From Beroe forskalii (Eukaryota > Ctenophora > Nuda > Beroida > Beroidae), in contig WFMF01000286.1 in assembly GCA_011033025.1 (NCBI GenBank), forward strand, positions 124,001 to 188,000: a stretch of DNA of 64,000 bases, in the 5' to 3' direction. The first letter of the stretch is position 1. Every line of letters begins with the position of its first letter. Position numbers and translations under genes: made by a program. Below are positions 2,681 through 53,274 of this stretch, piece after piece. The notes under the pieces are model-generated. The model did no database searches. It was not told the DNA's origin and worked only from the letters and a program-made list of their open reading frames with translations.

Positions 2681-5600
2681 ATGCAGTCCGGAATCCGGCC
2701 CAACTTCTGCTGCACAGTATGCCACCAGCAGTTCGATATCCTCTTCGAATTCAAGAGACATTTGGAAAGTCCGGAGCATGAACTGGCATACGGAGTGCGA
2801 CTTCGCAACTCAATGGTAAGGGCGTGCACTGCGCAGGGTTATGCACCTTATTACAGGTACATGTTTTTCATGGCCGAGTGCGTTTTGTCTCAGAAAACTG
2901 GGGTTATTCGGACATTGATTTCATAAATTCTCATGTGAAAACTAAAGTTGTCGGCATGTCAGCTATTTCAGCAAGATTCTATAGCAGCTGCTCAAATAGC
3001 TGCGATGCCACTTATCTTATCTAATGTAGACATGTCAGGTGGGCTCCTATTTCTGCAACTGCTGCCATATCTGCGTCAACACCCTGATTATTTGGAAAAG
3101 CCACATCATGGGAACGAAACATATGAAAATAGCTTGTGAGTTGCTCTTGATTTCCAGCAGTCTCATAGCTAGGTGTGCACAATATTATTGATTTTCTTAA
3201 TAATGAGTGAAATCAGTATTACTATGCTCAATGGAGCATATCTCCTTTTGATTTACCATTTAGTGTTTTAAACGCAATCAAGTGATCCTTTAGTTTCATT
3301 GTTTTAAGTTTATACCGCCGAGATTTTCAGGTTATTGAATGAGTTTATGATTTTCTTATATCTCAGGCGCCTTCTCTATGGCTTACTCCAACTTTGACTT
3401 TGACAAGCCTGCGCGAGTGTCAGATGTGGGGGTGCTTGATCAGAACGTGGAGATCCCAGACTCCTTGCAGAGGGCCACGGGGAAACCGAGCACTCATGTG
3501 AGTACCTGACAACCTGATAACACCTGTCCAATATGAGTTGAGGTGTGATCAAGCATTCAATATTCTTCAATACACTGGGGAATGGGGATATGAGTTTATT
3601 CAGTTTTGTCCAACCTATGCTGCATATAATAGTTGATTAGGGGTCAGTGGCTGGGGGGTCAGTGGAATGTATCAGGCGATTATTATGTCATGTATGATAG
3701 AATTGCTCAGTGAAGAGTGTCAAGTACGTGTTAAACTGTTTCACATGCGTGTTATGGACTCTACCAGCTACGTCATCGGAGTCACTGACATCGACTACAC
3801 TGCTCCTGGAATCTACATGTGCAAACTGTGTGACGAACCCTTCAACGAGGGCAACAAGTCACAGCACCTCACTTCAACCCGACACAGGGTCAATGTAAGT
3901 TAATTAGTCAACGAGTATCAGCACCTCACTTCAACCCGACACAGGGTTTATGAAAGTTACTAAGTCAACAAGTCACAGCACCTCACTTCAACCCGACACG
4001 GGGTCAATGTAAGTTACTAAGTCAACAAGTCACAGCACCTCACTTCAACCCGACACAGGGTCAATGTTAGTTACTAAGTCAACAATTCACAGCACCCCAC
4101 TTCAACCCGACACAGGGTCGATGTAAGTCACTAAGTCAACAAGTCACAGCACCTCACTTCAACCCGACACAGGGTCGATGTAAGTTACCAAGTCACAGCA
4201 CCTCACTTCAACCCGACACAGGGTCAATGTAAGTAACTAAGTCAACAAGTCACAGCACCTCACTTCAACCCGACACAGGGTCAATGTAAGTTACTAAGTC
4301 AACAAGTCACATCACCTCACTTCAACCCGACACAGGGTCAATGTAAGTTACTAAGTCAACAAATCACAGCACCTCACCTCAACCCGACCCAGGGTCAATG
4401 TAAGTCGCTAAGTCAACAAGTCACAGCACCTCACTTCAACCCGACACAGGGTCAATGTAAGTTATTAAGTCAACATGTCACAGCACCTCACTTCAACCCG
4501 ACACAGGGTCGATGTAAGTCACTAAGTAAACAAGTCACAGCACCTCACTTCAACCCTGACACGGGGTCAATGTAAGTTACTAAGTCACAGCACCCCACTT
4601 CAGGTGTTTAGGCGTTGGGACATGGCACTCTACGAAGAAGCAATGAATGTGAAGGACGTAGGAAAGCCGGAGTTCAGCGAGCGGTGTGAGTCCATCGCGG
4701 CAGACATCTTCCCCGTGGAGCAAAACGTTCTCAACAAGGTCACTGCTTTACTACTACCACTACTTAAATGTGTTACTGCTTTACTGTTACTGCTTTTATG
4801 TATCACTGCTTTGCTAATTAACTTCAGAAACTTCTTTACTACTTTAATATGCCTTATTGCTGCTGTACTAGGCCATTACGAGGGCCCCTACTACTAAGTA
4901 GTTTGGCTAGGAAGGAACCACCAACTAGCCATTGGTCTGTACTCACCCCACTACTGTTGGCCCCACCATCGCTATTGGTTTCACTGCACTTATAGTGTTG
5001 TCACCCCTGCAGGAACAGAGGCTACTCTACGATAGGATCATGGGAACAGACGCCACATTAGATGAGCGGTTTGCAGAACCGCCCGCCTCCGTGCCGCAGC
5101 CCGCGAGACATGCAATGCGGGGGCCGTCTCCCGCAGCCCGCCAGGTGACTCCCGATAAGTACTGTGCAGGGGTTGATTCACTTCAACCCGACACTTCAAC
5201 CCAACTGTCTGTGTCGGACAAATGTCGGACTACCGCAGGGGTTAGAGGTGATCTAGATAACACCTTGTGATGTTTACACAGAGAGGTGGTATGAACAGAA
5301 AATATGTTTTAAATATTCCCGCCCTGGCCAGGGCGGTAACCCCCCGCGGTAATAGAAAAGACTGGCCAGGGTATATATTAGACGAACGAGTGTCACAGGG
5401 TGATATAAGCATAATATAGATATAATAACGGGTGATGACTAATTATCTGGAAATATTTCAATGTATTCTTGTGGGCAAATCGAGATCATGTTAGAGCTCA
5501 AATATGATTATTCTGGATCCAAAAAGTCTGCTGATTCAGAATAACATCATGAGAAAATTTGAAAACCCTGTTTTCCCATTACGCTACTGGCCAATTTGTT

Positions 5601-11888: not shown

Positions 11889-11941
11889 GTTGGTTTCCTA
11901 GTTTACTACACTCTACAGCAACTGGTTTAGCAGCGCATGCA

Positions 11942-14900: not shown

Positions 14901-15847
14901 AAATATTTCAAGTTTTTCCTCGTTTGAAAAGCTTGTCGGATACGGACTCGCTTAGAAATTTGGAAATTTGATGCAATGAATTTGAAGTATTTCAGTTTGG
15001 TTCATGTTTCAGTTTTGCACAAGTCAAGTGGAGCTAGTGAAGCTCCTGAACCATTCCCTGGTTCAGAAGCTGCCAGTGCTGCTCCTTTTCAACAAGTGCC
15101 TCTCTCCCCTGGCCAAAGACCTCCCCTGGCTCTACAAGAAGTTCTGCATTGGGGAAATCCTTCACCACGCCGTGATGTCAGTTAAGGTTAGTACTTAGTG
15201 GCAAGGTTTACTGAGATGTCGCCACCTCATATATCGGTGTCTGAATATCCACAAAACCGCCATATGTATGTGTGTGATACTGATTTAACAGTATATCCAC
15301 GTACGTGCATGGCGCCGCGCGATCGGAAAATTCAGAATGATTCTCATTTTTAGAGGTCGCGACACCTGCCTAACTTAGTGAGTATTCATGTCCCAATGTC
15401 AGTTAAGGTTAGTGAGTGCGGTCATGTGCCAGTGTAATTATTGTTTAACTTTATAATACTGACCGTGCTGTCCCTACACTTTCGTGCGCGGGCCGCGGCG
15501 TATTAAGACGCGGAAAGAACATTTGGCATTTGCGAGCTATCAGTATCACTCTCCGCAAACAGCAAAAAGCACAACGCCCGCCATAATAATAAAAGTGACG
15601 CGCCGCGTACTAAAGAGTGGGGACACCACGAGGCACGTTGATGGTAGAGAATAATTATCTTAATTACCTGCACTTTCAATAACTCGTCATCATACAATTG
15701 ATAAAAATAGCCTCCAGTTCGTACATGAGAATGAAAGTGTAACAAACTGATCTGCTGCCTTTGCAGATGATGGAAGTGGATTTGTCGCAGCAGAGCAGTG
15801 TCGAGAGCATACTCAGTTGGATCAGAGAGAAATTCAACGTGAAGTGA
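11942..15847 (+). CDS. ARL16: ADP-ribosylation factor-like protein 16
   Basis: Five exons close in phase: 11942-11997, 12266-12380, 14299-14388, 15013-15186, 15767-15847, giving 171 aa, close to vertebrate ARL16. Visible motifs are the P-loop GCPGVGKST (residues 7-15), the switch-like PTVGSN, a WSQYY stretch followed by VVVFMVD, and LLLFNK. ARL16 is a divergent ARF-family GTPase linked in vertebrates to cilia/Golgi traffic and innate sensing. As in the family, the canonical DxxGQ switch 2 is degenerate. Here the guanine-specificity motif NKxD is NKCL (114-117), so nucleotide selectivity may be altered. The start is the ATG that places the P-loop right at the N-terminus. An acceptor-like tttag lies 13 bases upstream. 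Intron 2 holds an antisense peptidase gene. Confidence 0.88.
12683..13756 (-). CDS. Papain-family (C1A) cysteine peptidase, intronless, nested in ARL16 intron 2
   Basis: One uninterrupted frame of 357 aa. A signal peptide is seen at residues 1-19, then an I29-type inhibitor prodomain (about 44-103, with the ERFNIN-like ETAERRTVFKTN), then the mature peptidase from about 134. Catalytic residues are in place: Q149, C154 in GGTCWAHA, H303 in LYHLMSIVGY and N319 in IIKNSAGTTWG. The usual CGSC is GGTC, so the first cysteine, normally in a disulfide, is missing. The start chosen is the ATG at 13756. A TATA-like element (CTATAAG on the minus strand, 13791-13797) lies 35-40 bp upstream, so the in-frame ATG at 13804 is upstream of the likely transcription start. 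Absence of introns suggests a retrocopy or an intron-poor lineage-specific cathepsin. It is GC-richer than its surroundings. Confidence 0.85.
   Translation of the reverse strand: MTSLPITALLCLVLRTSLSDEVHPHAQQCIESAKISNALQSETELHALYEEYRTEHAVVHDESETAERRTVFKTNLKAIVHLQKNEQITWQVGLTPLAHLTEQELDLFYGGNTTLLHQTQSSGPVLQAAASAKSFDWRDQNGVTPVRAQYGGTCWAHASIVPLEAQLAKHNGFFFDPEELSVQQIIECAYTGKRDISSEGTDVDAWKYIAKNKHLSFRRDAPDLPEFYARHRCSSLIRHNDNALEGFRLSDYKIVTAATIEHTIETISPVDMTIAVKGIIGYHNYKDGDFDWTKSQCQEGLYHLMSIVGYTPKQFIIKNSAGTTWGIKGYMHWLRKEPSGFSCNFWRSLRYAELERE
13791..13797 (-). promoter_or_regulatory. TATA-box-like element of nested peptidase gene
   Basis: The minus strand reads gtactataagtg 35-40 bases upstream of the peptidase ATG. 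The spacing would give a very short 5' UTR. Position and sequence only. Confidence 0.45.
14506..14595. mobile_element. Small hairpin element in ARL16 intron 3
   Basis: Perfect 18-bp inverted repeats (ttgtgcgcgcaactctac at 14506 and its complement at 14578) with partly inverted inner sequence of ctgtt/tacttg words. MITE-like. Confidence 0.65.
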
Positions 15848-16116
15848 GGGGAACCTCCTTTTCAGTGCAAGTGAAGTACCGAATCTTCGTGACGAGAGGT
15901 CACATTCAGTTTCACTGTCACAGCATTTAACTTTTAATTAACTTTGATCAGATATTCTTTACAGTAAATGATACCAAGTGGTAATTGCCAACAGCCAAAC
16001 TATTCATGAATCATGATTGAATTTGAATTTCTTTGTATGACCCGCTGACGAGAGGGTCTGTCAACGGCCGACAAGAATTTCTTCGCTCAATTGATGCTAG
16101 GCAATATAATGACGGT

Positions 16117-16690: not shown

Positions 16691-16830
16691 GAAACCATGT
16701 ATTACCTGTATATTATGATGTATAATTAATTGTTGCAATTTTACTCATTTTCATGAATCGATACCCATTTTAATTCTCCTTGTTACAGTTTCAAATCGTG
16801 GGATGTAAACCACTCAGACCCCTCAGTTTC

Positions 16831-17136: not shown

Positions 17137-17650
17137 GCAGTGTACAGGAACACTGAACAGCTTTCCTGTACACTACACAGTGTTATGTACACTGCACAGT
17201 GTTATGTACACTGCACAGTGTTATGTACACTGCACAGTTTTCCTGTACACCACAGTAGTCCTGTACACTGCATTTTACGGTAACACTGTGCAGTGGACAT
17301 GAACACTGTGCAGTGTACAAGAACACTGTACAGTGTACAGAAACACTTTGCAGTGTACAGAAACACTGTACAGTGTACAGGAACACTGTGCAGTGTACAG
17401 GAACACTGTGCAGTGTACAGGAACACTGCAGTGTACATAACACAGTGCAGTGTACAGAAACACTGTGCAGTGTACAGAACACTGTGCAGTGTACAGAAAC
17501 ACTGTGCAGTGTACAGAAACACTGTGCAGTGTACAGAAACACTGTGCAGTGTACAGAAACACTGTGCAGTGTACAGGAACACTGTGCAGTGTACATAACA
17601 CTGTGCAGTGTACATAACACTGTGCAGTGTAAAGGAACTCTACAGTGTAC
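17137..17650. repeat. Palindromically arranged CAGTGTACA minisatellite, copy 1
   Basis: A 17-20 bp unit (cactgtgcagtgtacaggaa) is tandemly repeated. The part 17160-17275 is in one orientation and 17283-17645 in the other, with the switch at 17263-17293. The array is therefore one large imperfect palindrome. All six frames are open only because of the unit's composition. Confidence 0.9.
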
Positions 17651-17791
17651 ACTGTACAGTAGCAATGCGCGGTGTACAAGAAAAATGCTCAGTTTACAGG
17701 AACAGTATGTAATAAGGCACCCCCGTTTCTGATCCTGAAGGCTAATCTTTAATTCTGAACATAGGATCCGCCCATTTACTATGCCTCACTG

Positions 17792-17888
17792 GGGCGTGTC
17801 GAACTCCTACGTGCGCGGCTCTATCATGAGACACGCACAATTATTCCGCGCATGAAAAATCCGCGCACGTAGGAGTTGGACACGCCAC
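17792..17888. repeat. Hairpin inside duplicated flank (second copy near 18750-18856)
   Basis: ggcgtgtcgaactcctacgt at about 17793 is inverted at about 17867-17888 (acgtaggagttggacacgcc). The same hairpin is in the second copy of the duplication. Confidence 0.75.
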
Positions 17889-18023
17889 CGTAACCATACA
17901 CCTGGTCAAATCTGTTTTCAAATTGCAACAGCTCCAGACATTTTGTAGTCCAGGGTGGAATCATGAACATTTGCCATAATTTAATTCAAAATAAACAAAC
18001 ATAATTCAAACGAGCGTACCAGC

Positions 18024-19249: not shown

Positions 19250-22885
<3,636 letters not shown>

Positions 22886-32284: not shown

Positions 32285-35200
32285 CTACCGTCCCCAAATC
32301 CACTTAGTGAACGACGACAGACCCGAGGCCTCTTTCTCTACTCGCTCGTCGAGGTCTGGGAACTCTGAACATGAAATTACGTTAACTTTTTATGAAACAA
32401 AAAATGGCAATCGACACTAAATCGACACTTGCGACGTGCGTCGGCATATTGGTTGATTTTCTCGCTGCTACCATTTATCTGAATTCTCACAACTTTTAAC
32501 ATCGTACCTATGTGATGTAACGTACCTATGTGATTTAACGTACCTATAATGTGGTTTAACGTACCTATGTGATTGAGGGAGATATCAAAGAACAGCGGTT
32601 TGCAAGGAATTGTGCGGAAATCTGGTGGTAACTTTGCGATTGTAGGCAAGTCTTCAGCTTTCGTGTAGAGCTTGAATTCGTCTAAGTTGTCGCTTAGCAA
32701 CTGAACATGATTTAAGTTTAGTATGAATACGAACCAAAGGGTGCGTTTTTAAACACAAATTTTATACCTTATTAACCAAAGCTGGAATTTAGTAACATAT
32801 TAATAGTATCTATGTATGAAATGAAACCACTGCGCTATTTATGACCAGCTCACCTTTTCCTTGTCGGCTGCTACTATTTCCTTCATCTCTGTGTCCACTA
32901 GTTGGGTCTGTAGGAAGGCGGAGGCGTGCGCAGAGCAGCGCTGACTGTGTATTTGTTTGTCTAGCGCTTGCAGGTCGTCTTTTAGTCCCTGTAACAAGGG
33001 AAGTTGTGGTCAGTTGGTGTATTGTTATCTGGTCTGCCTCGTGATCGAACATTCCCGGATTCGATTCCCTGCCATTCCCACTGAGTCACGGGTGAAAATA
33101 CCTAGGTATCTCAAGCCTATGCAGCCACACGTTTCACTCAGCATTAAAAAAGTAGAGAAGTGTATAGGTAACATGGTATTAAGAACACGAGCATGATTAG
33201 TAGATTGATCAATATGAATAAACAAGGAGTTACCTGAAGGTTTCTAACTTTAGTAGCGTTGGCAGCCTCAGTTGTGTCAGTGATGTGCTCTTTACATTTA
33301 TCATAGAGCACGATAGCGTTTAGCCAGTTACTCTGGGCAAGATGACATTCGGCTATGTAGAAACACCTGGGGATATATTCGAGATGATAAAGTAGTTATG
33401 TTCTAGATAATTAATAAAGTAAATGCATTCTAGTTCATCACGTCGTAAAACTACTTTCAAATAGTGTGCAATATAGCATCTAAAAGAATAATCAGCGCAT
33501 GAGGGATTATATAGATGTGATAAATCTTACTACTCCCCCTTTATCGTCCCCCTCCTACCCCTCCCCCCACTACACACCTCTTGGTCCTGTAGAACTTAGT
33601 GTTGACGTCTATCCCTTCGTAGATATCCCCGTCCCTATCCAGGGATGGGATATCCCGCTACCACTCCCCTTTACCCCCCACCTCCTACCACTCCCCCTCC
33701 ACCCCACCTCCTACCACTCCCTACCACCCCCACTACACACCTCTTGGTCCTGTAGAACTTAGTGTTGACGTCTATCCCTTCGTAGATATCTCCGTCCCTA
33801 TCTAGAGAAGGGATATCCCTCCTACCACTCCCCTTTACCCCCCACCTCCTACCACTCCCCCTCCACCCCACCTCCTACCACTCCCTACCACCCCCACTAC
33901 ACACCTCTTGGTCCTGTAGAACTTAGTGTTGACGTCTATCCCTTCGTAGATATCTCCGTCCCTATCTAGGGATGGGATATCCCTGAGATCCGCGTAGTTC
34001 TGTAGGATGATGTCGTACAGTCGCACCAGGTCCTCAGGGCGGGCTACCTTAGTCCCAGGCCGGGTCTCTACCACACCACTCAACTTGTCTGTAACCTGAT
34101 AACACGAACCATTCGTAATACTGAGGCTCCTGTCAGGCAATGCCGTGTTTTAATTAATCTTGGTCAATACTTGTGAAACATCAAAGCATTGCACAGTTTG
34201 AATGACAGACTAATGTACCTGTTTAGCCATGGCTAGGAAGCGTTCTATAGTGATGGTGATCCTGAGATAGTTGAAGTAGTCTGTGGCTGGATCTTCAGGG
34301 ACATTACTCTTCCTCAGTTTCTGAGAGATGTCTCTGCAGGAAGATATTATCTCCTCGTACAACTCTAGTCGCTGGTCTGCGTCCGAACACCCCTGAGAGA
34401 TACGCTGAGTTAAAACCCTGAGAGATTTGAACCCTAAGTTAAACCCCTGAGAGATCTAAACCCTGACTTGGAACACCCCTGAGAGATAACCTGAGATCAG
34501 AGATGAGGGGTTCAGGGGGGTGACCCCCCCTAAACCCTGAGTTGTAACTCGCTGGTTTTACTTCGTGCTATAGTCAGTGGGTATACTTGTATAGTTTATA
34601 TAGTGGGTAATGTGTGTAGCAGCTCACCGTTGCAAGTTGAATGTTGTCCTCCATCTGAACGAACTGGATCTTAACCTCGTCATCGGATATCGTGAAACAC
34701 TTGCCCTCCCACTTCACCTCCCTCACTGGAATGCTTACCATTAAAACTTCAAACAAACTACTTTACTTCAAACAAACAACTTAAGATTGTTATATTTCTA
34801 GCTCTGGTCAAATTACCACTTCTAACCTGTACTGGCTGCTACAGCAGTAGCCTTGCTAGCGATGATACCTAACCTACTAACCTGTACTAGCTGCTACAGC
34901 AGTAGCTTTGCTAGCGATGATACTGTCCAGCTCCTCCATTAGCCCCTCCTCGCCAGGGGGCGCCGCCCCCAAACCTCCCGAGCTCTGGATGTTGTAGAGA
35001 CAGTACTGAACTTTAGGACTCATCTCCGCGTGCTTCTCTCGGTACAACGCCCCGTCCTCCACTGCTTCTGAGGGAAGGTGGTTTCAGCACTGCTTCTGAG
35101 GGGAGGCGGTTAAAGCATGTCTCCTCATTAATCAATCACACTAAACTTTAACATGTCATCGAACAGGAATTCTAGTTTCATTTAAGATAATTATGAGCTA

Positions 35201-36539
35201 GATTCAGGGTTGAAGCAGATATCACCGCCCTCTAACCTGCTAGTTTGTTGTATATCTTCTGCGCGGCAGTGAGGGATATCACTGCCCTCTGCCAGTGCGT
35301 TTGTTCGAAGAGCAGCATGCCTGCCATGTAGTGGTGGTAAGCCTTGGCTTCTAACTGGGTGGTGGTGTCACACTTGAGAGTTACACAGTTCTTTTCCAGC
35401 TCAGCCGCGTACAGCACCGCCTTCTTCAGCTTGTGAATGAGATGCACCTGTGAGGAGCGTGTTATCTGCAGATACTCTGACATAGGCTACCTGTTTCCTA
35501 GGCTACACAACCTGTTTCCTAGGTTACACTTCCTGTTTCCTAGGTTACACTACCTGTTTCCTAGGCTACACAACCTGTTTCCTAGGTTACACTACCTGTT
35601 TCCTAGGCTACACAACCTGTTTCCTAGGCTACACAACATGTTTCCTAGGCTGAACTACATGCTTCCTAGGTTACACTACCTGTTTCCTAGGCTACACAAC
35701 CTGTTTCCTAGGCTACACAACCTGTTTCCTAGGCTACACAACCTGCTTCCTAGGCTGAACTACATGCTTCCTAGGTTACACTACCTGTTTGCTAGGTTAC
35801 AGTACCTGTTTCTTAGGCTTCACTACCTGTTTCCTAGGTTCGGTGTTTGCGAATTGTTTGAGGTCCATGGCGTAAGCCCAGGCCCTCTCAGCGCGAATGA
35901 GGATGATGTACATGTAGCGGATGTCTTTGACAAAGAGCTCAGGGGTGATCTTCTTATTGCTGAACTTCTTACTGCCGTGCAGGAACTTGAGTCCTGGGAT
36001 ATTCAGAGAGAATATTCTGCAAGAAAAGAGACTCAGAACTCAGAATCATTTTAAAGGGGGATATTCTGCAATAACCCCAGGTTTGTATTATTTATGTATG
36101 CCATATTACCTTTATAAAGTCGGTTTAGTCTGCGAGTGCAGTACTGCCGGTACCTCTGGAAATCGTCATGCTTCAATCCGTGCAGGTTCTGATACTCCTT
36201 TATGTCCTTCAGCACTACCGGGATAATAGTTCGTTTAGTTCATTATAAGGCTTTAAGGGATATAGATATCCTTCTCAATCACTCCACAAGGTGCAACATG
36301 TCTGCGAAATTGGTCAAATGTAGAAATATCTTATATAGTTGTTTCAATTAATACCACTTTAGGTATTGTTGAAAAGCATGGTGGGAATAAAGAGGAAAGC
36401 ATGCATAGGTAGGCGTGTTGGTGTGAAACTAACGCTTGAGAGAGAAAGGGCAGACTAGCTCCTCCTTCTCTTCCTTCTCTCCCTCCAGATTTTCCTCCAA
36501 ATGAACGTCCTCCACTTTAATAACTTCTTCAGAAGCCAT
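32285..36539 (-). CDS. SRP68: Signal recognition particle subunit SRP68
   Basis: Twelve exons close in phase: 36539-36434, 36214-36110, 35993-35827, 35447-35237, 35061-34882, 34725-34628, 34392-34219, 34095-33905, 33366-33234, 32988-32854, 32700-32565, 32364-32285; 571 aa, slightly shorter than human. SRP68 binds 7S RNA and SRP72 in the cytosolic particle that targets nascent chains to the ER. Diagnostic stretches are HGLKHDDFQRYRQYC (RNA-binding domain), RAERAWAYAMDLKQ, NTEPRK, RPEDLVRLYDIILQN, and near the end PCKPLFFDISLNHI plus the short basic/aromatic C-terminus TKWIWGR. An acceptor-like gtgtttgtag lies 1 base before the ATG. At least five of its eleven introns contain duplications of their own splice junction, listed separately. 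Confidence 0.93.
32510..32570 (-). repeat. About 18-bp x 4 copies of SRP68 exon 11 end and donor
   Basis: The unit aatcacatag|gtacgtta, the end of exon 32700-32565 plus its donor, is repeated three further times in the intron, keeping the GT each time. Confidence 0.9.
33560..33995 (-). repeat. About 160-bp triplication of SRP68 exon 8 end, donor and intron start
   Basis: Copies at about 33905-33990 (used exon), 33745-33835 and 33567-33660 each encode IPSLDRDGDIYEGIDVNTK ... YRTK followed by ag|gtgtgtag and a C-rich (minus strand G-rich) tract. The intronic copies keep the exon's reading frame and donor. Confidence 0.9.
34380..34510 (-). repeat. Four copies of an SRP68 3' splice site
   Basis: The acceptor of exon 34392-34219 (atctctcag|gggtgtt) recurs upstream in the intron near 34418, 34447 and 34481 as atctctcaggg, with variable spacers of about 30 bp. 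Confidence 0.75.
34806..34935 (-). repeat. Two-copy duplication of SRP68 exon 5 end and donor
   Basis: The last about 45 bases of exon 35061-34882 (IIASKATAVAAST) with donor tacag|gttag are repeated immediately downstream. Both donors are plausible. Confidence 0.9.
35490..35835 (-). repeat. 21-bp minisatellite of SRP68 exon 3 end and donor, about 16 copies
   Basis: Exon 35993-35827 ends cctaggaaacag|gtagtg. The intron continues as a 21-bp array of cctaggaaacaggtagtgta and variants, so almost every unit has a cag|gt. Confidence 0.9.
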
Positions 36540-36929: not shown

Positions 36930-39220
36930 TCACTTCTTCCCCCTCCTCACCACCTTCGCCTTGTTGTCAGGGTGGTTGTTGGTCCACGCCCCCAGAGAGT
37001 CGTTGCTGTAGAAGTCCATGGGGTAGTTTTCCTGCCACTCCACGCCCCTGAGCGCCACTGCCGCCTCGTAGGGGGAGAGGAGAGGGGCAGGGAAGGCGTA
37101 GCCCCAGTCTATGGAAAGTCTGGGGCAGGCCACCTGGACCCAGGCACCCACCTCCTTCAGCAGACCCAGTCTCTCTGGGAATATCTCCGACATTAGCAGC
37201 ACCACGTGCTTTTTACCGGCCTTGCTCAGCTGCTGCTGTATGTTAGCCAGGATGGAGGGGTTGCCTTGACGACCCAGCGTCCCCAGTATCAGGCCCCACG
37301 TGTCAGCCTGGGCAGCCTTCTCTATCTCCCTGTGTCTGATGGCCCTCATCTTGGCGTGGTCGTAGTGCTCCTGAGTCAGGATCTTGGAGTAGGGATCGTA
37401 TCTATAGGCGGGGAGGGAGGGGTTGGAGATCATTATACTTTCCAAGTGGAACCTTCCATCTCCTAGGTAGAGCAGGCAGGAGACAGAGGGGTCAAGGGGA
37501 GGAGAGGTGCATCCTAAAACCTGCCGGAGAAAGGAAGTGAGATGGGGAAATGGGATGGTTTATTTTAGAAACTTAGGTTAATACTGCCTAAGAAATAGAG
37601 GATGATGAGAAGATATCTAAGAATTCGGATTACTTATTACCTCGCCAGGAGAGAGAGGCTTTGCTTGCGGGATCACCAAGTTCCAGCCATCTTTGTTCAG
37701 TACATCAACGAAACTGAAATCAATTGTAAACTTGATCAGCAGTACAATATTAATGAACTAATAATCATAAGCTGTATTTCAGCTGTCAGCATTGAACCAG
37801 TAGCGACTATACTCCATCAAACTGTCTTTACCTGTGCAGAGTGTTCAGGAACTGAATAGTGCTGACAACAGCCATCTTCTTGCTCTTGTCAAAGTTAACC
37901 TTCAGAGAATCAATGAGGTGCTTGGGGTCTATCTGAATATCCACAAACACGTACAGGACTGTTATACTCGTCCTGTAGTTTGCAAGGTTGTGGAATTCAC
38001 ATAATACTGGACATCTGCTACCAACCTATCAATGGATCCCCACTACCAAATCAATGCAACCTCCCACTACCCTATCAATGTAACCCCTACTAACCTATCG
38101 ATGCAACCCCCCACTAACCTGTCAATCCAACCCCCAATAACCTATCAATGCTCACTACCCTGTCAATGCAACCCTCTCTTACCTATCAATGCAACCCCCA
38201 CTAACCTATCAATGCTCACTACCCTGTCAATGCAACCCTCTCTTACCTATCAAAGTATCAATGCATCCCCCACTAACCTATCAATGGGCACTAGGCATGA
38301 GTGACCGTAGTGGATCATGAAGTCAGCCCCTAAAGAGCGGGCAGTAAAGTCGTCCACACAGCAAGCTCCGTAGGTGACATCTCCAAGAATGAGTGTTTCT
38401 GCATCAGTGAACACCTGCATTTTCAATCTCATGCTATTATCATCAATAGTTTATTCATATATCTAAGGTATCCACTAAAACAAGGTGGTTACTATAAACC
38501 TAAACAGATAACCACAATGCCTTGTGACAAGCCCCTTCATTCTCCAATCAGAGCAACCTCACCTCTAGGATATCAGCTATCACACAGGCGTACAGCAGGA
38601 GTCCCTCTGGAAACTGCAATGCCACACACTTGGCTCCAGCACTCCTGATCCGCCAGATACTCTTGTGGATCTCGAAGTTGTAGTTGGGAGGGAGTTTCTG
38701 AAATAATAAGGGGAAATCAGTGACAGTTCACAGTGCTACATAGTGCTTACCACTCTGTGACGTTGGGGTGAAGTTAGCAATTGGCATCATGGAGATCAGT
38801 TCCATAATTTACAGTTGGTAGAAATTATAGGAGTCGTTTGGAAAGGTTCACGGATTGGAAGCACTCCCTTTACTTCATGAAAATCAGGTGAAGTGTGAAC
38901 GTACCCACATTTATTGCATCGTTGATGAGGGGGTCATTGAGTTGCTCCTCTGGGATTTGTTGGACAACTCTGCGCTGCACCCGCTTTCTTGGAACACTGC
39001 TCTTCACTACCAGGGACTTTTCCTCCACATTTCCTTTACATGTACTGGTGTCTATACAGACACCATTCCCTCTACTAGTCTCTGGACAAGGGGGCTTTGG
39101 ACAGGTAGACCCTGACAGGACAGGCTGGTGACTAGTGGTGCTGCCGACTGCCGGGTCTGTAGCACAGGATGGGTCTGCAGTACAGGTGCAGGAGTCAGAG
39201 GGGTGGGAGGATGCCAACAT
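36930..39220 (-). CDS. DPH1: Diphthamide biosynthesis protein 1 (radical-type ACP transferase subunit)
   Basis: Six exons close in phase: 39220-38909, 38697-38563, 38414-38278, 37972-37832, 37713-37641, 37520-36930; 462 aa. With DPH2 it forms a [4Fe-4S] enzyme that transfers the 3-amino-3-carboxypropyl group of SAM to a histidine of elongation factor 2. The three cluster cysteines are visible: [10 protein letters not shown] (C167/168), VLGCTSP (C270) and [13 protein letters not shown] (C398). Family blocks [53 protein letters not shown] and YPMDFY are conserved. The N-terminal about 60 residues are Ser/Thr/Cys/Pro-rich and less conserved. The intron after exon 3 is largely a junction-derived array. 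Confidence 0.95.
38024..38285 (-). repeat. About 23-bp array of DPH1 exon 3 end and donor
   Basis: Exon 38414-38278 ends cccattgatag|gttagtggggg. The intron repeats tgataggttagtgggggttg with variants about ten times, some reading gataggtaagaga, so competing donors are present. Confidence 0.85.
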
Positions 39221-39993: not shown

Positions 39994-42771
39994 CTACATT
40001 TCCATGAAGTCCGTGACCTCAGAGAGTTCTCTCTCCTTCGCTTGCTTGAGTGCCCATCTCTGCTCTGCGAGGGCAGGGCTTTCTTTCCATTTCTCGTGGA
40101 AAATACGCTTCCCGCATATGGGACATTTCTTACCTCCTGAAATGAAGCTGTTTTGCATTCAAATTCATTTAGATGGACTGGAATTGTGCTGGTTTTCTGA
40201 AATGAAGCTGTTTTGCAATTAAATTCATTTACATGGAATGACTACTTTCCCTGTCTTTCCACTTACCTTTGAAGGGAGGAGTCTTCATGTACTGGTCAAG
40301 ACACTTGTGGTGGAAGATGTGGGAACAGTACACGTATTCCACGTACTGCTCATGCCGAATGTCTTGAGTTACCTGGAGTAAAGGTTAACTCAAGTAGTAA
40401 TGCCATCTACTGTAAGTGATGAATTTTCCAAAAAAAACGAAGATTTATGTTTTCCCCAATTTCCTACTGCTGAATTGGTTGCAATGCTTTGTTTGTCCTA
40501 CAGCTAAATTTGTTTGGACTTTGGAGTTGACAATAGAATGAGGGAGATAAGGTACCCACGTTGGAAGGGTCAGGAGGGAAGGCCTGAGTCTGGCAGATAG
40601 AACACTCCGTGACTGGGTAGAACTTGATGCAGTCCCTGACAATGTACTCTGCCACAGGTAGAATGGACGGTTTCTCTTGGAAGGGGGGATCCCTGGGAGG
40701 ACAGGATTTAGGTAATAAACAAACAGGGGACAACCTGTAGTAGCACGACTAGCGACTACAAATCCTCTACAGGAGTACGGCACTAAAGTATCATCCCAAG
40801 TTATTGAAGCGATAGTCATCCTACAGTATACCATTAGGCCCCTACAAATCATATACAATGATTCCTATGTTAACTGCTACTGAAAGTAAACCTACACTAA
40901 CAGGCACTAACTAACCTACCCCTTCTTGGGAATGGCAGGAAGCACTAACTAACCTACCCCTTCTTGGGAATGGCAGGCGGCACAATACAGCGCCTTGACA
41001 GCTCCACGCCTTGTCTTATGAACATGGCCGCCAAATCAGCCGGGAAGTTCGTTTCTTTGCACTCGACACTGGAAGAAGAGAGTGTTGCAGGGTGAAATAT
41101 CAGTAGCTGCTACAGTTAATCTGTAGGAATTGCCCATAAAGCATGTGCCTGCAGCGAATCATTGCAGCAGTAGCTATTCACAACAATACGAGGGTTCACA
41201 GGAATAGTCAGTAGGGGAGAAGTTCCTAATTAAAACAGGGGGAGAATGAAATTACAATAGACAGGGGGAGAATGAAATGACAACTGACATGTGACAGCTC
41301 CCTTATTCGCCATAGTGCTGGATAATGCACCAGGAGCTACAGACTGCACCAGGTATATGTACAGTGTACACTTTACAGTGTCCAGTATATGTTTTTAAAG
41401 ACTGCTGTTACCTGGAAATGGCTGATGTCCAGGTTTATGTATTTACCTGACGGACTGTCGAGGGTAGTCATCTGACACCGCCATCTTCACGTTCATGAAG
41501 TAACCGTTCTGGTGCACGTTTAGAAGGAAGGACCCGGCCTTCTGCCGGATCTTTATCTCGTCCCCGTCACTCAGCAGCTTCGTCTTGATCGCGTCCAGCT
41601 CCGCAGCGCACACGATAAACATGTTCTCATCCAGGAACTGCCGCACCACGCTGCACACGTGACTTACCTGGGGGTGCACACGTGACTTACCTGGGGGTGC
41701 ACACGTGACTTACCTGGGGGTGCACACGTGACTTACCTGGGGGTGCACACGTGACTTACCTGGGGAGGGGTGTGTGACTTACCTGGGGGTGCACACGTGA
41801 CTTACCTGGGGGTGCACACGTGACTTACCTGGGGTGCACGTGACTTACCTGGGGTGCACATGACTTACCTGGGGAGGGGTGTGTGACTTACCTGGGGGTG
41901 CACACGTGACTTACCTGGGGGTGCACACGTGACTTACCTGGGGGTGCACACGTGACTTACCTGGGGAGGGGTGTGTGACTTACCTGGGGGTGCACACGTG
42001 ACTTACCTGGGGGTGCACACGTGACTTACCTGGGGTGCACACCCCTGCAGAAACATTTATTTTTGACAAACATATGCACTAAAATGATTAGCTGGTCGAG
42101 ATGAATCGAATGCAATTAAAAGCTAAGCTTCATTTCCTTTGGTTGAAATTTCGATTAAAGGACCGCTTTTTTGCAACTCCAATCACAAAATCACGTTTGT
42201 AAAAATAATCTAGACAAAGACAGGTGGGAGCTTACCTGGAACTGCCCCAGCAGCTTCTTAGCCTCCTTCTCTGCGATGTTCTCGATGAGTTTCATGACTC
42301 TGTCAGGCAGTGACTTGCTCTTCACTTCTACCATCAGAGCTTTCTTGGGGTACTCCTCCGGGAACATGATGAGGAGCCGCAGCTGCTTGTGCTCAGTCTT
42401 CCTGAGGGGTTACCAACTACAGTTACCAACTACTGGGATGTTCCTAATACTGCAAATCATGCATTTTAGGGGAAGGGTTACCAGGTGCGGGATACTCCTA
42501 AAAAGTTCAAACTGTTAAGCACTTTCTCAGTGTCTCAGTGATAGTAACTTTATGAACTAGGGATATTGGAGGTATATGTCGTAGTTTCGCAGGGCAATGA
42601 CAAGGGGGATGTACTCAGACTACTTCTGGAGCAGTGATGCTATCTGAGGGCTGACACTCACCGTATTTTGACTTGCACAGAGTGCTCGCTGGCTGATAGC
42701 AGCTCCAACCCCTCCACAGACCCCTCTAGATCCCTCCTCAGCCTCCCCAGTTCCTGTTCCAGGGATGCCAT
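39994..42771 (-). CDS. Tandem-RWD / RING-H2 protein, putative E3 ubiquitin ligase
   Basis: Seven exons close in phase: 42771-42662, 42401-42236, 41667-41447, 41068-40958, 40692-40560, 40372-40267, 40136-39994; 329 aa. The N-terminal half looks like two RWD (E2-like) domains: LLIMFPEEYPKKAL carries the first YP motif and VKMAVSDDYPRQSV the second. The RING-H2 follows: C233-x2-C236 (CSIC), C263-x-H265 and H268-x2-C271 (CSHIFHHKC), C287-x2-C290 (CPIC). The C-terminal helix is rich in K/E. RWD plus RING occurs in E3 ligases such as RNF25, RNF14 and FANCL, and it would act with an E2. I do not recognise the exact orthologue. The ATG is preceded by gacagacag|g, acceptor-like. Intron 2 contains an unusual splice-site array. 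Confidence 0.8.
40915..40990 (-). repeat. Two-copy duplication of an RWD/RING exon end and donor
   Basis: The end of exon 41068-40958 (gccattcccaagaaggg|gtaggtt, encoding AIPKKG) is repeated about 38 bp further into the intron with an intact donor. Confidence 0.9.
41650..42048 (-). repeat. 23-bp array of juxtaposed 3' and 5' splice-site motifs, about 17 copies
   Basis: On the minus strand each unit reads gtgtgcacccccag|gtaagtcac. Exon 41667-41447 begins gtaagtcacgtgtgca, so each unit copies the intron end, the AG and the exon start. Because the exon happens to start GTAAGT, every unit has both an acceptor and a consensus donor with no bases between them. Confidence 0.92.
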
Positions 42772-46300: not shown

Positions 46301-49100
46301 ATCAGGTAAAATGCCACGTCTGCCGGTCTGCGTCTACAGCTGAACGAAAAATACCGAGTATTTAATTTAAGCAAGCAGGTAAGAAGTTTTAGGAATGTTA
46401 TTTGTGTGGAAAAAAGAGGTGTTACGCATATTTCCGACATTAAGTGAGTATTGCAGTTAATAGAGGCAAAGAAAGTAAGTAGGTTTCACAGACTGCAAAG
46501 GTGAAAAAATTAAAGCAGAAATAGAAAGGTACAAAATAGCCATACTCCAATACAGGAGTTGGAGCACGGGGTGCTGGGTTCGGTCTAGCTCTAATCCGAG
46601 TCTGGAGCTTGCTTGTCCCGTGTCCCTGGGCACGGGTTGTTCGATCTTTTCATGACTCTAGTCGGAGTCCTGTCCTGATTTAGCGTGGGTACACACAACA
46701 AAACAAAACAAATCTATCAAAGGCACATCTGAAATGAGAGGATGTAATACTGTTCATATCACAGAACACCTCTTATTCATTACACGATTGGAGAGCTCTT
46801 TAATGTGACGTAATTATTATAGACTAGAATGTAGTATTGGCGATACAAAAGTGCCTATTGAACGAACATGTGGTTGTAACAAAATAGAAACAGGCAACCG
46901 GTGTAATGATGATATTTTAATTACGGAATACCATTCGGATCAGAGACGTGATTTCAGATCACGTCTGCGCGCTCAGATCAGCATTTTGCCACGCTCAGCG
47001 CGGAGACGTGATTTTCAGATCACGTCTGCGCGCTCAGATCAGCATTTTGCCACGCTCAGCGCGAAGACGTGATTTCACATCACGTCTGCCCTCAGAGATC
47101 ATCATTTCGCATTTCTTAGCTCAGAGACGTGATTTTCTTTACGTTTTCACTTCAGATTGATTTCTGCTGATGCTTGCCGAGCCTTCAATCTGAGCCATGA
47201 TTAAATGCGTTCAAATTTGTTATCAGCACGAGTTTTATTTGGCGGTATGAATATTCAAGTTCTCAACCGCAAATTTAATGCTTCTGTGATTTTATGATCG
47301 TTTTCAAAAACATCATCAATTTATACAACTTTATGGTCAATTTTTCACCAAAATCACGTCTCGAGAGGCCGACTTCTCGCCACGCTGAGCGTGGCAGATC
47401 AGCAGTGTTCTGTCACTGGGTTGTCCCTTCTGAAATGATTCCTCACCACTTACCAGCGACACTAGCCCCAGCCGCGTGGTCGATCCCTATCCGCTCACTC
47501 TCCGTCGTCTTGACGGAGTACTGCAGCTCAACGAACACTGCGCGGCTCTAAAAAGCGAATTGTTTTAAATTTAACTGATGACAAGGTTAAGCGGCTCTAG
47601 GAAGCAAACTGTCAACTGATATGAAGGAGCAGTGGCTCTAATGAGCTAATGAGAAGGAGCAGTGGCTCTAACGAGCTAATGAGAAGGGGAAACCGTGAAC
47701 CTAAAACTAGTCACTATCAGCTTTCTAATTTCAACCACAAACACCAGCAGTGGCCATTCTGCGTCAGAGGGGGTACCTGGTTACCTGGTAGTGGCTGATG
47801 TCGATGATGGACTCGAAGGTCCTCATGGCCAGCTCCTTCTCGCTGTCGTGATCAAACATCAGCAGCACAGGGCTTTCGTTCAGCTGACTGATCTGCGCGT
47901 GCAGGTCCAGGTGCCGCTGCGAGGGCAGCTGCCCTAGCGCGTACCAACCCACGATTTCACATGCGGAAAGGGTGTTACTGTGAGCATACTGTGAGAGTTT
48001 GAGCGATCGATTACTGATTTCAGGACTGCGAGCGTTTATTGATTTCTGAGCTGTTACTGAGGGGCAGGCTGCACTTGAAAGACTGGTGACTTGGAGGCTG
48101 ATGGGGCAAGGGACCTCGTCACCGAATTGTTGAGTTGATAATTTCAATACATTGTTCAGCAGTTCAAGCGAACTGATCTCTATAAGTCTAAAAAACTTAC
48201 AATTCTAAGTACATCGCTTATTATACAGATTTGATCAACTGAACGTGAGCTTTCAATGGATTTCAACTCACCGGAAGCGACCTTGTTGGAGCAGCTCGCT
48301 TGACCAGGACTAATCTGGGAAACTGAAACACAGAATCGTCAGCTTACTTTAGAAAGCAAAAACAAGGCAGCAATTGTTAGCAATATCTTACAACATTGTT
48401 TGACAACAAATCAATAATATCACGTTTCTCGAGCTTGTTGTCAAGGTAGTCCCTGATAACAAATCAATAATTCTCACGTTGTTCGAGCTTGTTGTCAAGG
48501 TAGTCCCGGTTGAGCACCCAGTCGCCGTCTATGACGTCATAGCACACATCGAAGGAGGAGATAATCTCGATATCCCTGCCACTTTGCTTGCCCAGCAACA
48601 CCCCGAGAGCTGCGGAGTTCGGGGATGGAAATCGGAGGGAAATCCCAGCAATTACAAGGAAAATAAGTAAATAGCTATTTGCCAATGATCAACTTATCAC
48701 ATGAATAATGGATTCGCAAGAAAGAAAGGTTCGCTATCGTATCTCAAACTTATGTATCGCATGCGTAAAGGAATCGTAATTTCGTAAGAAAGAAGAGTTC
48801 GCTACCGTATCTGAAGTCAGTGTTGTTGATCTTGCATCTGGTGGTGTGGTCGGCTATGTTCATCGTCACCAGAGGATGGAGGTACACCACACTCCCTGAC
48901 GACACTGAGTTCTTGCAAACCACACTCTCCTCGCACTCCATTGCGTTGCTAGGTGTGTTGCTAACCGCGTTGCTAGCAGCATTGCTAGGGGTGTTGGTAG
49001 CCGCGTTGCTAGGTGCGGTACTAGCCGTGTTGCTAGGCACGTTGCCACGAGGAGTACAGTCCATAGACTGGCTGCTTGGCCCTGCCTGCTCTCCACTCAT
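43372..49100 (-). CDS. COPS6: COP9 signalosome subunit 6 (MPN- domain)
   Basis: Nine exons close in phase: 49100-48806, 48609-48478, 48309-48272, 47988-47785, 47547-47454, 45444-45424 (21-nt microexon), 44562-44458, 44149-44049, 43575-43372; 397 aa. The MPN fold is seen as VYLHPLVTMNIADH, LGVLLGKQSGRDIEI and VGWYALGQLPSQ. It lacks the JAMM metal ligands, as CSN6 does. Next come VFVELQYSV...SERIGIDHAAG and the C-terminal helices with MLNGRVSLICDYI and NVIYSNSVNKKKLRGL. CSN6 is the structural MPN partner of CSN5 in cullin deneddylation. The N-terminus is low-complexity (SNAxxNTP repeats). Exon 3 and the exon 7/8 join are less certain; the latter is flanked by an 8-bp direct repeat. Confidence 0.85.
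43580..43975 (-). repeat. 26-bp minisatellite abutting a COPS6 3' splice site, about 14 copies
   Basis: Unit gatgagatggagtcagacaa plus gagtgg. On the minus strand it is pyrimidine-rich (ctcttgtctgactccatctc) and runs straight into the tctctctcag|gag acceptor of the last exon. Confidence 0.9.
45060..45129. repeat. Small palindrome in COPS6 intron
   Basis: tactgttaaatt ... gaccgtcattac and the inverted gtaatgacggtc ... gatttaacagta form a hairpin of about 70 bp. A gtcgaccgtcgacagtcga palindrome lies nearby (about 44840-44862). Confidence 0.6.
45880..46060. other. Possible retroelement 3' tail in COPS6 intron 5
   Basis: The segment ending agcccttagtggtgcccctc and cggggtttt matches a segment at about 57613-57645 downstream of a LINE-like ORF fragment. 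Shared tail only; identity is tentative. Confidence 0.35.
46935..47125. repeat. About 60-bp hairpin-forming tandem repeat, about 3 copies
   Basis: Unit gagacgtgatttcagatcac, gtctgcgcgctcagatcagc, attttgccacgctcagcgcg. Each unit contains the inverted pair agacgtgat/atcacgtct. Related words recur near 47355-47405. It lies in COPS6 intron 5. Confidence 0.8.
47541..47692 (-). repeat. Four degenerate copies of a COPS6 3' splice site
   Basis: The acceptor ttttag|agccgcgcag of exon 47547-47454 recurs as ctag|agccgc, ttag|agccact and ttag|agccact near 47597, 47637 and 47667. The last two are within 30-bp tandem units. Confidence 0.7.
48418..48520 (-). repeat. Two-copy duplication of a COPS6 exon end and donor
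   Basis: The end of exon 48609-48478 (gggactaccttgacaacaag and ctcgaacaac|gtgaga) is repeated about 55 bp into the intron as ctcgagaaac|gtgat. Confidence 0.85.
48690..48815 (-). repeat. Two-copy duplication around COPS6 exon 1 donor
   Basis: cagatacggtagcgaactct and ttctttcttacgaa at the exon 1/intron 1 junction recurs about 75 bp downstream as gatacgatagcgaacctttc. The second copy has lost the GT, so it is decaying. Confidence 0.65.
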
Positions 49101-50602: not shown

Positions 50603-53274
50603 TCACTTGGTAACGTAGGACGCCAGCTGAAACACCAGCAACAGTCCAGTAGCGAGTGCTATGGTGTTATGCAGCTTCTTCCTCACTCTGTCATCTCTCC
50701 TAACGAGGATGATGGGAGCTGAGGAGGTCAGTTGCTCCAGCGGCACCCTGTGCAGGTAGTGTCCTGCAGTGTCAACCTGCAGAGTGTTGTCAATGTAGTA
50801 TACCTATAGAGTTCAAGTAACAAGAATTAGTTAAAATTACAATTTATGTTAATAGCTCATATTCACAACTTTATTACCTGGTATTTACACGCAGGATCGT
50901 GCTGCCAACTGAAGTGGTAGGCTGCTGCACAACCCAGACTAATGCCGCTGAAGGGAACCGACCACGCCCACTTGAACCCTGACACACCGAGAGCAGGTAC
51001 ATTACAGATAAACATTACTTAGTGACTAAGATCACATTAAAATGGAGAAAGGAATTATAGGGAACCCCGAAAGCGCTCAGAGGGACAAAAGACATGATCA
51101 GGCGGGAAAAGGATTCCTGCAACTAACATGTAGTAAGCGATTTGTAATAAGGGAGCAACTAACATGTTGTAGGTAAGCAAATATCACTCTAAATTCCCTT
51201 ACCGAGGGCAGCGAGACCTCCCAACACAGCGGACTTGTGCAGGGCATTCCCTACCCTGATGTACCTGACACACTCCTCGCCTGAGGATGCGCTGATTAAT
51301 GCACAAAGTAAACCTTAATCCTCATATAATTAGCAATCAGGAGGTTGAATTTCAAGTTCTTTTTTTAATCGAGTTTCCCCTGTGACTTCATGAATTACCC
51401 TTTCAACGTTGGTTGCAGTGAAGCCTGCCCAGCTTACTGGTCATGTGGATCTAAAATAAGTGTTGTTACTTTGCAACCATTGCTTTGTATATCTCGTTGA
51501 ACGAGAGCTCAGGAGTGAGATGCAAGAGCTTTTGCAAGCTTTTATTTTAAATTTTTTCCGAGTTCAAGCACAGAGAATTAGATATGTAAGTTGAACTGAT
51601 TTTTTTTTATCATTTCGAAATTATCTTCCGCGTGGAACCCTTTTCAGGCTTGCAGGCGTTTGGTAGCAGTGAAGCCTGCCCAACTTACCAAGGTGATGTG
51701 GCTCTATAACGATAGTGCTGTGCTTTGCAACCATCGCTTTGTCCAACTCCCGCTCTCCCCGCTCAGGCGGTGCCTTGCCGTCGAACACTTCGTGGATTAT
51801 CACACAGTCATTCTCTTCCTCGCACAAGTAACTGAGAGAGGTGAGAGTGGCAGGGGGTTACTGGTGAGGGGGAGAGGGGTTGTGAGGGCAGGGGTTACTG
51901 AGAGAGAGGGGTTACTGGTGAGAGAGTGGCAGGGGGTTACTGGTGAGGGAGAGGGGTTGCTGGTGAGAAAGTGGCAGGGGGTTACTGGTGAGAGAGTGGG
52001 GTTACTGGTGAGAGAGTGGGGGTTACTGATGAGAGAGTGGGAGTTACTGATGAGAGATCAGCAGGGGGTTACTGGTGAGAGAGTGGCAGGGGGTTACTGG
52101 TGAGAGAGTGGGGGTTACTGTTGAGAAAGTGGCAGGGAGTTACTGTTGAGAAAGTGGGGGTTACTGGTGAGAGAGTGGGGGGTTACTGGTGAGAGTGGGG
52201 TTACTGTTGAGAGAGTGGCAGGGGGTTACTGGTGAGAGAGTGGCAGGGGGTTACTGTTGAGAGAGTGGGAGGGGGTTACTGGTGAGAGAGTGGCAGGGGT
52301 TACTGGCGAGAGAGTAGCAGGGGGTTACTGGTGAGGGAGAGGGGGGTTACTGGTGAGAGAGTGGGAGGGGTTACTGGCGAGGGAGTGGCAGGGGGTTACT
52401 GATGAGAGAGTGGCAGGGGGTTACTGGTGAGAGAGTGGGGGTTACTGGTGAGAGAGTGGCAGGGGGTTACTGCTTTACTGGTGAGGGAGTGGCAGGGGGT
52501 TACTGGTGAGAGAGTGGCAGGGGGTTACTGGTGAGAGAGTGGGGGTTACTAATGAGAGAGTGGCAGGGGTTACTGATGAGAGAGTGGGGGTTACTGGTGA
52601 GAGAGTGGGGGTTACTGGTAAGAGAGGGGCAAGGGGTTGCTGGTGAGAGAGTGGCAGGGGGTTACTGGTGAGAGAGTGGGGGTTACTGGTGAGAGAGTGG
52701 GGGTTACTGATGAGAGAGTGGGAGTTACTGATGAGAGAGTGGGGGGTTGCACTGAGAGTAGGCAGGGGTTACTAATGAGAGACTGGCAGGGGGTTACTAG
52801 TGAGAGAGTGGGGGTTACTGATGAGAGAGTGGCAGGGAGTTACTGTTGAGAAAGTGGCAGGGGGTTACTGGTGAGAGAGTGGCAGGGGGTTACTGGTGAG
52901 AGAGTGGGGGTTACTGGTAAGAGAGTGGCAGGGGTTACTGGTGAGAGAGTGGCAGGGGGTTACTGGTGAGAGAGTGGCAGGGGGTTACTGGTGAGAGAGT
53001 GGCAGGGGTTACTAGTGAGGGAAAGGGGTTGCTGGTGAGAGAGTGGAACACAGTGGCGAGTGAGGTGGTTTTGTTTTTGAGGTACTGGGTTGCGTACAAT
53101 CTAGTTGATAAGTCTTTTATTGAATAATATTCAATAGAAATACTGCATTGAAGAGTTAACTATTATTAACAAAAGTAAATAGAAAGTAAATAACAAGTAA
53201 AATTTCAATTACTAAAGTACTAACGATTCCACAGGCACGACATCGCTGTCAGTTGGAGCGCTAGGTTCATCCAT
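50603..53274 (-). CDS. TMEM11: TMEM11 (mitochondrial inner-membrane morphogenesis protein, PMI)
   Basis: Five exons close in phase: 53274-53225, 51831-51689, 51280-51203, 50978-50878, 50803-50603; 190 aa, nearly the length of human TMEM11 (192). Signatures: DCVIIHEVFDG, TIVIEPHHLG, RVGNALHKSAVL, two membrane helices, then SWQHDPACKYQVYY and LTSSAPIILVRRDDRVRKKL followed by HNTIALA. TMEM11/PMI sits in the inner mitochondrial membrane, associates with MICOS and shapes cristae. The first exon (MDEPSAPTDSDVVPVE) was found across a 1.4-kb intron by phase: it ends in phase 2 at tc|gttagt, and exon 2 begins t-tac. That intron is almost entirely a minisatellite. Confidence 0.9.
51425..51525 (-). repeat. 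Decayed copy of TMEM11 exon 2 end and donor
   Basis: gcagtgaagcctgcccagct ... gtggatctaaaataagtgtt ... tttgcaaccattgctttgt resembles 51667-51760, the end of exon 2 plus its donor, but with several substitutions and no open frame. It is an older duplication of the same junction type. Confidence 0.7.
51838..53045 (-). repeat. About 25-bp minisatellite of TMEM11 3' splice-site sequence, about 48 copies
   Basis: On the minus strand the unit reads ccctgccactctctcaccag followed by taacc. The true acceptor of exon 51831-51689 reads ccctgccactctcacctctctcag|ttac, so the array repeats its pyrimidine tract, AG and first exon bases. It fills about 1.2 kb of the 1.39-kb intron 1. Confidence 0.92.

Follow-up and report, generated by a model that had tools for sequence, protein, structure and literature searches.

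The human gene IFI6 reportedly carries a minisatellite with multiple splice donors, as described by Turri in 1995, and it is to our knowledge the only known single case of a junction minisatellite. Units of the IFI6 repeat act as splice donors, two downstream units being used in some transcripts (PMC4526556), and intron gain in potato is ascribed to duplication across an intron-exon boundary, by which the copy receives ready splice signals (PMC4974935). In the ctenophore Hormiphora californensis, Tandem Repeats Finder marks 13% of the genome, and introns and intergenic DNA have an elevated indel rate (PMC8527503). Among titles and abstract openings of the openly licensed literature, junction minisatellites were not recognised as a genome-wide class. 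The stretch analysed here, hereafter the window, is a 64-kb segment of Beroe forskalii DNA (C343:124001-188000) within a 216-Mb assembly, and some of its introns hold tandem repeats, the units of which copy the exon/intron junction of their own host intron.

Copies were identified by a strict test, requiring a gapless self-match with a score of at least 15 that extended 4 nt or more to either side of the junction, and by a looser test, which accepted gapped self-matches with a score of 12. The 53 introns modelled in 10 genes or gene pieces (median length 237 bp) included 12 with donor-spanning and four with acceptor-spanning copies according to the strict test, and 15 and seven, respectively, according to the gapped test, which agrees with the original prediction that introns hold repeats of their own boundaries. 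The strict donor matches were longer than 25 bp in 11 of the 12 cases and 18/18 nt in the twelfth, and therefore chance does not explain the donor copies. These cases were located in SRP68 (four introns), TMEM184 (two), DPH1, the RWD/RING gene, the zinc-finger gene and COPS6 (two), all of which had been named as donor-copy genes, and in the ARL16-like gene, which together with COPS6 intron 1, TMEM11 intron 2 and TMEM184 intron 19680-19822 was new to the list. Strict acceptor cases were found in SRP68 (two), WBP2 and the RWD/RING gene. The gapped test added decayed donors in TMEM11, TMEM184 and WBP2 (30581-30705), and acceptors in COPS6, the RWD/RING gene (40137) and TMEM184 (19439). Accordingly, the acceptor genes predicted were recovered apart from TMEM11, whose acceptor-side array was counted by neither test: the unit in its intron 51832-53224 has the pyrimidine tract and AG in common with the real acceptor, and little besides. 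Unit size ranged from 18 to 164 bp, against the 18-160 bp initially proposed, and decayed and intact copies were present side by side as had been claimed. The features are listed below by window position and strand, with a slash at the exon joint of the product or at the splice junction.

3852..4587, + strand: 57-bp donor-spanning array, 13 copies, taking up nearly the entire zinc-finger gene intron 3895-4603; RHRVN/VF contiguous in homologue P0119.
15175..15413, + strand: 18-nt donor with an exact copy 221 bp downstream, ARL16-like intron 15187-15766; strict test.
19783..19833, - strand: decayed donor copy 34 bp downstream, TMEM184 intron 19680-19822; gapped test.
21984..22078, - strand: 47-bp donor-spanning unit, 2 copies, TMEM184 intron 21448-22040; YDIQ/FLRF contiguous in P0120-P0122.
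22426..22655, - strand: 57-bp donor-spanning unit, 4 copies, TMEM184 intron 22187-22608; DVYE/AFVI contiguous in P0120-P0122.
29924..30033, - strand: 30-bp acceptor-spanning array, WBP2 intron 29932-30303; strict test.
32503..32574, - strand: 18-bp donor-spanning array, about 4 copies, SRP68 intron 32365-32564; NHI/EFPDL contiguous.
33564..33984, - strand: 164-bp donor-spanning unit, 2.6 copies, each full copy including 80 nt of exon, SRP68 intron 33367-33904; TKR/CFYIAE contiguous.
34385..34495, - strand: decayed acceptor-spanning copies, SRP68 intron 34393-34627.
34822..34923, - strand: 47-bp donor-spanning segment, 2 copies 55 bp apart, SRP68 intron 34726-34881; strict test.
35060..35117, - strand: 28-bp acceptor-spanning unit, 2 copies, SRP68 intron 35068-35236; strict test.
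35487..35840, - strand: 21-bp donor-spanning array, about 17 copies, SRP68 intron 35448-35826; RKQ/VHL contiguous in five homologues.
38050..38293, - strand: decayed donor-spanning array, unit about 23 bp, DPH1 intron 37973-38277.
40137..40237, - strand: 60-bp unit, 2 copies, ending at the acceptor AG, RWD/RING intron 40137-40266; gapped test.
40904..40977, - strand: 38-bp donor-spanning unit, 2 identical copies, RWD/RING intron 40693-40957.
41652..42042, - strand: 23-bp acceptor-spanning array (cag/GTAAGTCAC), about 17 copies, most with CAGGTAAGT, RWD/RING intron 41668-42235.
47623..47687, - strand: decayed 30-bp copies of tract, AG and exon start, COPS6 intron 47548-47784; gapped test.
48401..48507, - strand: 54-bp donor-spanning unit, 2 copies, COPS6 intron 48323-48477.
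48713..48812, - strand: decayed donor-spanning copy 68 bp downstream, lacking GT, COPS6 intron 48610-48805.
51409..51742, - strand: decayed donor-spanning duplication with 251 bp between copies, TMEM11 intron 51281-51688; gapped test.
51843..53046, - strand: array of pyrimidine tract and AG, stopping 11 bp short of the acceptor and weak as a junction copy, TMEM11 intron 51832-53224.

The RWD/RING array at 41652-42042 resembles an array of 5′ splice sites (CAGgtaagt), but the reading frame, in which exon 3 starts with GTAAGTCAC, places it on the acceptor side.

The genes modelled were SRP68, COPS6, DPH1, the RWD/RING gene, WBP2, TMEM11, TMEM184, the ARL16-like gene and the zinc-finger/SR gene, the last being a single gene although its SR-rich 3′ portion was initially modelled separately. 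Pfam matches were obtained for seven products (JAB and MitMem_reg, Diphthamide_syn, RWD and RING, GRAM, Mito_morph_reg, Solute_trans_a, and Arf), and the SRP68 protein spliced from 12 exons had its best named match in SRP68 of Bolinopsis microptera (73% over 99% of the query). Seven donor-array junctions in total yield a product that is contiguous in relatives. Four of these are in SRP68, with no insertion at the joint in five aligned homologues including that of Bolinopsis, two are in TMEM184 (three homologues, the closest 93-95% identical), and one is in the zinc-finger gene (a single homologue). At the SRP68 junction ST/VRE, four of the five homologues lack one residue just upstream. The junctions of DPH1, COPS6, the RWD/RING gene and WBP2 are those predicted from reading frame, splice consensus and the human proteins. 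The TMEM184 first exon starts at 22765 according to P0120, and not at the modelled 22799, which leaves the 53-intron set unaffected, the intron upstream being uncounted. In COPS6, the intron donor as modelled at 44157-44457 breaks the frame; the intron may be of the GC-AG type, or an exon may have gone unseen. The WBP2 exon probably has a 1-nt frame error, due to misassembly or to a real frameshift, at 30704-30775 within a 23-bp coding repeat.

Outside the window, the sample covered 60 kb of its flanks and 150 kb of other contigs, and the final set comprised 102 introns. These were called by domain match together with splice consensus (46 of 56 introns in myosin and chaperonin genes, and 2 of 6 in adaptin, uncalled introns being uncounted), and further introns were obtained with a small gene finder, for which the window and the myosin and chaperonin genes served as training set. 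In in-sample checks, the gene finder had both ends right for 26 of the 31 kept window introns, and recovered 39 of the 46 domain-based introns. Three plus-strand gene-finder introns on C1, antisense to a myosin gene, were left out, one of them previously counted as donor-spanning; their removal took an earlier set from 103 to 100 introns. One C2 intron was kept in the set with a wrong acceptor joined by the gene finder. Strict donor-spanning copies were found in 3 of the 102 introns, all in myosin-model genes and readable by eye:

C29:8799, donor array, 37 bp, 3 copies; strict test.
C785:21210, donor array, 22 bp; strict test.
C225:1046683, dispersed donor copies; strict test.

Strict acceptor-spanning copies were present in two of the 102, C225:1033843 and C29:7658, though the call of the second is doubtful. 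With gaps allowed, acceptor arrays at C558:177672 and C343:196216 were added, as were weak donor hits at C225:1042864 and C2:556953. Junction arrays thus recur in other genes on other contigs, yet are rarer than in the window, where strict donor cases were commoner (12/53 vs 3/102, Fisher P 0.0002). Two uncounted introns were also observed, one near C602:82467, uncalled, with a decayed donor-spanning duplication recognised by eye, and one at C343:118588, where the donor-spanning duplication contains a gap.

Repeat load amounted to 54 arrays in the 64-kb window (8.4 per 10 kb), 45 in 60 kb of flanks (7-8 per 10 kb), and 69 in 150 kb of other contigs (4.6 per 10 kb), 2 of the 19 sampled pieces of which were free of arrays. 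Coding exons of the same window genes also hold tandem repeats (8952-9143 and 30303-30489), e.g. KSPGR-type protein repeats. Two arrays of a 20-bp palindromic unit lie at window positions 17150-18661 inside what is, by eye, a direct duplication some 950 bp long, and 2855-8889 of C343:94001-104000 is taken up by roughly 6 kb of satellite DNA, whose unit of close to 21 bp gives self-matches in either orientation.

That the copies were created or miscounted by the assembler is barely credible, although the WBP2 coding repeat near 30704-30775 gives, to judge from its reading frame, at least one probable 1-nt error in the window. Copies differ among themselves in most arrays, their flanking sequence is unique, and the same architecture is present on five contigs (C343, C29, C785, C225 and C558).

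The origin of such arrays from the end of their own intron is evidenced most directly by a chaperonin gene present on C558 in two copies, either paralogues or alleles. At the 3′ end of one intron, a 31-bp unit occurs four times in one gene copy and once in the other, where it amounts to no more than the ordinary 3′ end of the intron; the array is growing or shrinking. This acceptor array is the one case of a copy-number difference between gene copies. Unequal length was also observed in two intron pairs with the same ends, paralogous or allelic: C29:3099 (281 bp) and C177:167006 (4238 bp), and C184:224839 (279 bp) and C447:577756 (3826 bp).

Extra splice-site sequences are created by the copies, as had been proposed: GT was retained in 51 of the 59 intronic donor copies of 18 donor cases in and outside the window. 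Retention of GT could be read as selection for extra splice-site copies, e.g. for splicing robustness, by which arrays would be retained and expanded. This is very unlikely, however, considering that, of the 40 downstream GT copies tested (from 8 of the 12 strict donor arrays), splicing at 37 would lead to an in-frame stop, the three exceptions all being in SRP68, and that copy number differs between the two C558 gene copies; moreover, young copies should retain GT without selection. Because of these stops, the exon-side donor most likely supplies the protein.

The two ends of the introns differ. In the sample, duplications straddling a donor are retained at a higher frequency than those straddling an acceptor, and they include more of the exon, with an exon reach of 4-80 nt in the 15 donor events and of 8-16 nt in five of the six acceptor events (the sixth, 46 nt, is a doubtful gene-finder call). 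A purely mutational cause should act equally at both ends, whereas a splicing filter need not: an extra acceptor with exon would lie upstream of the true acceptor, be encountered by the spliceosome before it and compete with it, whereas an extra donor would lie downstream of the true donor.

We consider it probable that the arrays result from rapid minisatellite turnover, tolerated at junctions since the exon-side copy keeps the mRNA intact, and tolerated better at donors than at acceptors. In this ctenophore genome, local tandem duplication would be frequent and minisatellites would turn over fast, with duplications landing within or next to introns that are short (median about 240 bp). Given introns of this length and 20-60 bp units, a considerable fraction of the duplications must straddle a border. 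Those internal to exons would tend to break the protein and be lost, and those that are intronic or straddle a border would be kept, the straddling ones because the exon-side copy of the splice site still yields the same mRNA while the extra copies become intron. The array would then expand within the intron, and donor-straddling duplications, carrying more exon, would be retained more than acceptor-straddling ones. In this account we infer both the tolerance filter and which copy is used. Tolerance explains much of the pattern, and a modest extra bias towards junctions is not needed by it.

Whether junctions are favoured over intron interiors depends on how duplications are counted, as position-based and event-based tests disagree. 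The share of duplicated positions in 52 window introns was 28% at donors, 13% at acceptors, and on average 26% in interiors, and in 98 outside introns 5%, 4% and 10.7%, respectively; on this count, junctions were not clearly more duplicated than interiors in either set. The original prediction had taken junction copies to suggest either a duplicating mechanism or selective tolerance, on the argument that random duplication would not favour junctions. As proof of a mechanism this argument is not supported: by position, duplication is roughly as common at junctions as in interiors, or less so. This test is harsh, because arrays multiply interior positions. In the per-event null, each duplicated segment was placed at random in the intron stripped of its extra copies; an earlier null, using copy spacing as unit length, was replaced because it overstates the expectation for distant short matches (window donors 12 vs 4.6, P 0.00035; outside 4 vs 2.8, P 0.29).

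Tolerance alone leaves unexplained an excess of donor events and a milder tendency of arrays to reach acceptors, and the results that weigh against it are the following. Donor events numbered 12 in the window vs 3.7 expected (P 2e-5, post hoc, as the window was chosen for the pattern), and 3 vs 1.3 outside (P 0.13), giving 15 vs 5.0 when pooled over 155 introns. With 45 nt per intron barred, the window still had 12 vs 4.9 (P 3e-4) and the outside set 3 vs 1.6 (P 0.18), and with only copies at least 90% identical, window donors were 11 vs 3.9. Outside donor-touching events, starting at or before +12, were 5 vs 2.3 (P 0.055), and 7 vs 2.7 at a looser score (P 0.009). Acceptor-touching arrays, ending at or beyond -12, were 14 of 51 vs 8.3 expected (P 0.018), with 6 vs 2.3 outside (P 0.014) and 8 vs 6.1 in the window (P 0.22). 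Acceptor-spanning events showed no excess (6/51, P 0.39).

Independently of gene models, splice-site scores of repeat units were compared with those of their own shuffles and of random non-array segments from the same regions. Units with a donor score of at least 8 were 8 of 54 in the window vs 2.7 in shuffles, and 10 of 111 outside vs 6.0, and those with an acceptor score of at least 8 were 6 vs 2.9 and 6 vs 2.8, respectively; at a donor score of 10, outside units showed no excess (0 vs 1.1 in shuffles). Against random segments, the donor excess persisted among 165 arrays (18 vs 9.0), whereas acceptor sites showed none (12 vs 13.2). Over the whole genome, pairs of CAGGTAAGT within 44 bp numbered 170 vs 19 for the reversed motif (single sites 1,734 vs 1,365), and pairs of AAGGTAAGT 77 vs 17. 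These pair counts are inflated by a few long arrays, the 77 lying on 20 contigs, and the CAGGTAAGT pairs on 15 contigs among the 100 of 170 listed, and at locus level the genome-wide motif pairs give no clear excess.

These excesses could be explained if junction DNA, donors above all, were a true duplication hot spot tied to transcription or splicing, with a rate two to three times that found elsewhere in the intron; template switching at splice junctions would be set off by R-loops, stalled polymerase or lesions coupled to transcription. Donor events point in the same direction in and outside the window, acceptor-touching arrays exceed expectation, strong donor sites in units exceed both shuffles and random segments, and in ARL16 and C225:1046683 the donor copies are distant from the junction. 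We nevertheless regard the hot spot as rather unlikely, since most of the donor signal stems from a window that was selected for the pattern, acceptor-spanning events and per-position counts show no excess, and nothing in the analysis shows R-loops or stalling. The excess at donors and the milder one at acceptors may be due in part to ascertainment, in part to barred intron space, and in part to the exon half of junction copies, which should decay more slowly and so prolong detection; a real two- to threefold donor bias is possible. A preference for junctions is only partly supported, and of a special attraction of duplications to borders there is no more than a hint. Should the donor excess hold genome-wide, it would link splicing or transcription to local DNA instability, and if the hot spot is true, junction-born minisatellites would keep adding to intron length and supplying alternative donors ready for use.

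Two further origins were considered: the arrays could be mobile elements of the introner kind, or traces left when introns arose through AGGT-segment duplication. A C2 chaperonin intron has an identical 12 nt, CAAGATGCTGAG, before GT at both ends, RWD/RING intron 41668 ends with CAG/gtaag and cag/GTAAG (13/18 in register), and the acceptor arrays C225:1033843 and C558:177672 of unrelated genes have a 14-nt string in common, CCCTCGTGTTTCAG. However, that last pair is the only one of 190 unit pairs from 20 arrays to be more alike than shuffles, the other 189 showing no such kinship, and hence an introner family, as suggested earlier, was rejected. Likewise, over 99 introns the likeness of an intron's own donor and acceptor averaged 6.05/18 vs 6.11 in shuffled pairs (sd 0.16), RWD/RING 41668 and the C2 intron being single exceptions, and AGGT duplication was rejected as a general cause, together with the proposed general intron gain by duplication. 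Either origin is thus highly improbable for the arrays. By eye, direct repeats flank the C2 chaperonin intron (within C2:552501-557800) and possibly, with a length of about 11 nt, one C602 intron (within C602:81801-85300), and these two introns were possibly gained recently.

Among published systems, the likeness to Hormiphora californensis is that of a tandem-repeat-rich ctenophore genome; the passages cited for it make no mention of splice junctions. Introners (PMC9860276) are likewise repeated elements that alter intron content, but they copy themselves through many genes, whereas the units here are gene-specific, one pair apart. As in the potato case, a junction-crossing duplication hands splice signals to the copy; there, however, a new intron arises, whereas here the copies lie in existing introns with no general similarity of their own ends. 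Junction arrays would provide a cheap route to longer introns with a measurable asymmetry between donors and acceptors, and natural tests of spliceosome choice among near-identical tandem donors, of which as a rule only the first would give protein. The closest likeness is to IFI6, as the array units carry the exon end and 5′ splice site of the neighbouring exon (12/53 window introns and 3/102 others) and the copies mostly keep GT (51/59). Use of downstream copies would here mostly give stops (37/40 in eight arrays), and in place of one human gene, junction minisatellites form a recurrent class in one animal genome, at donors as well as acceptors.

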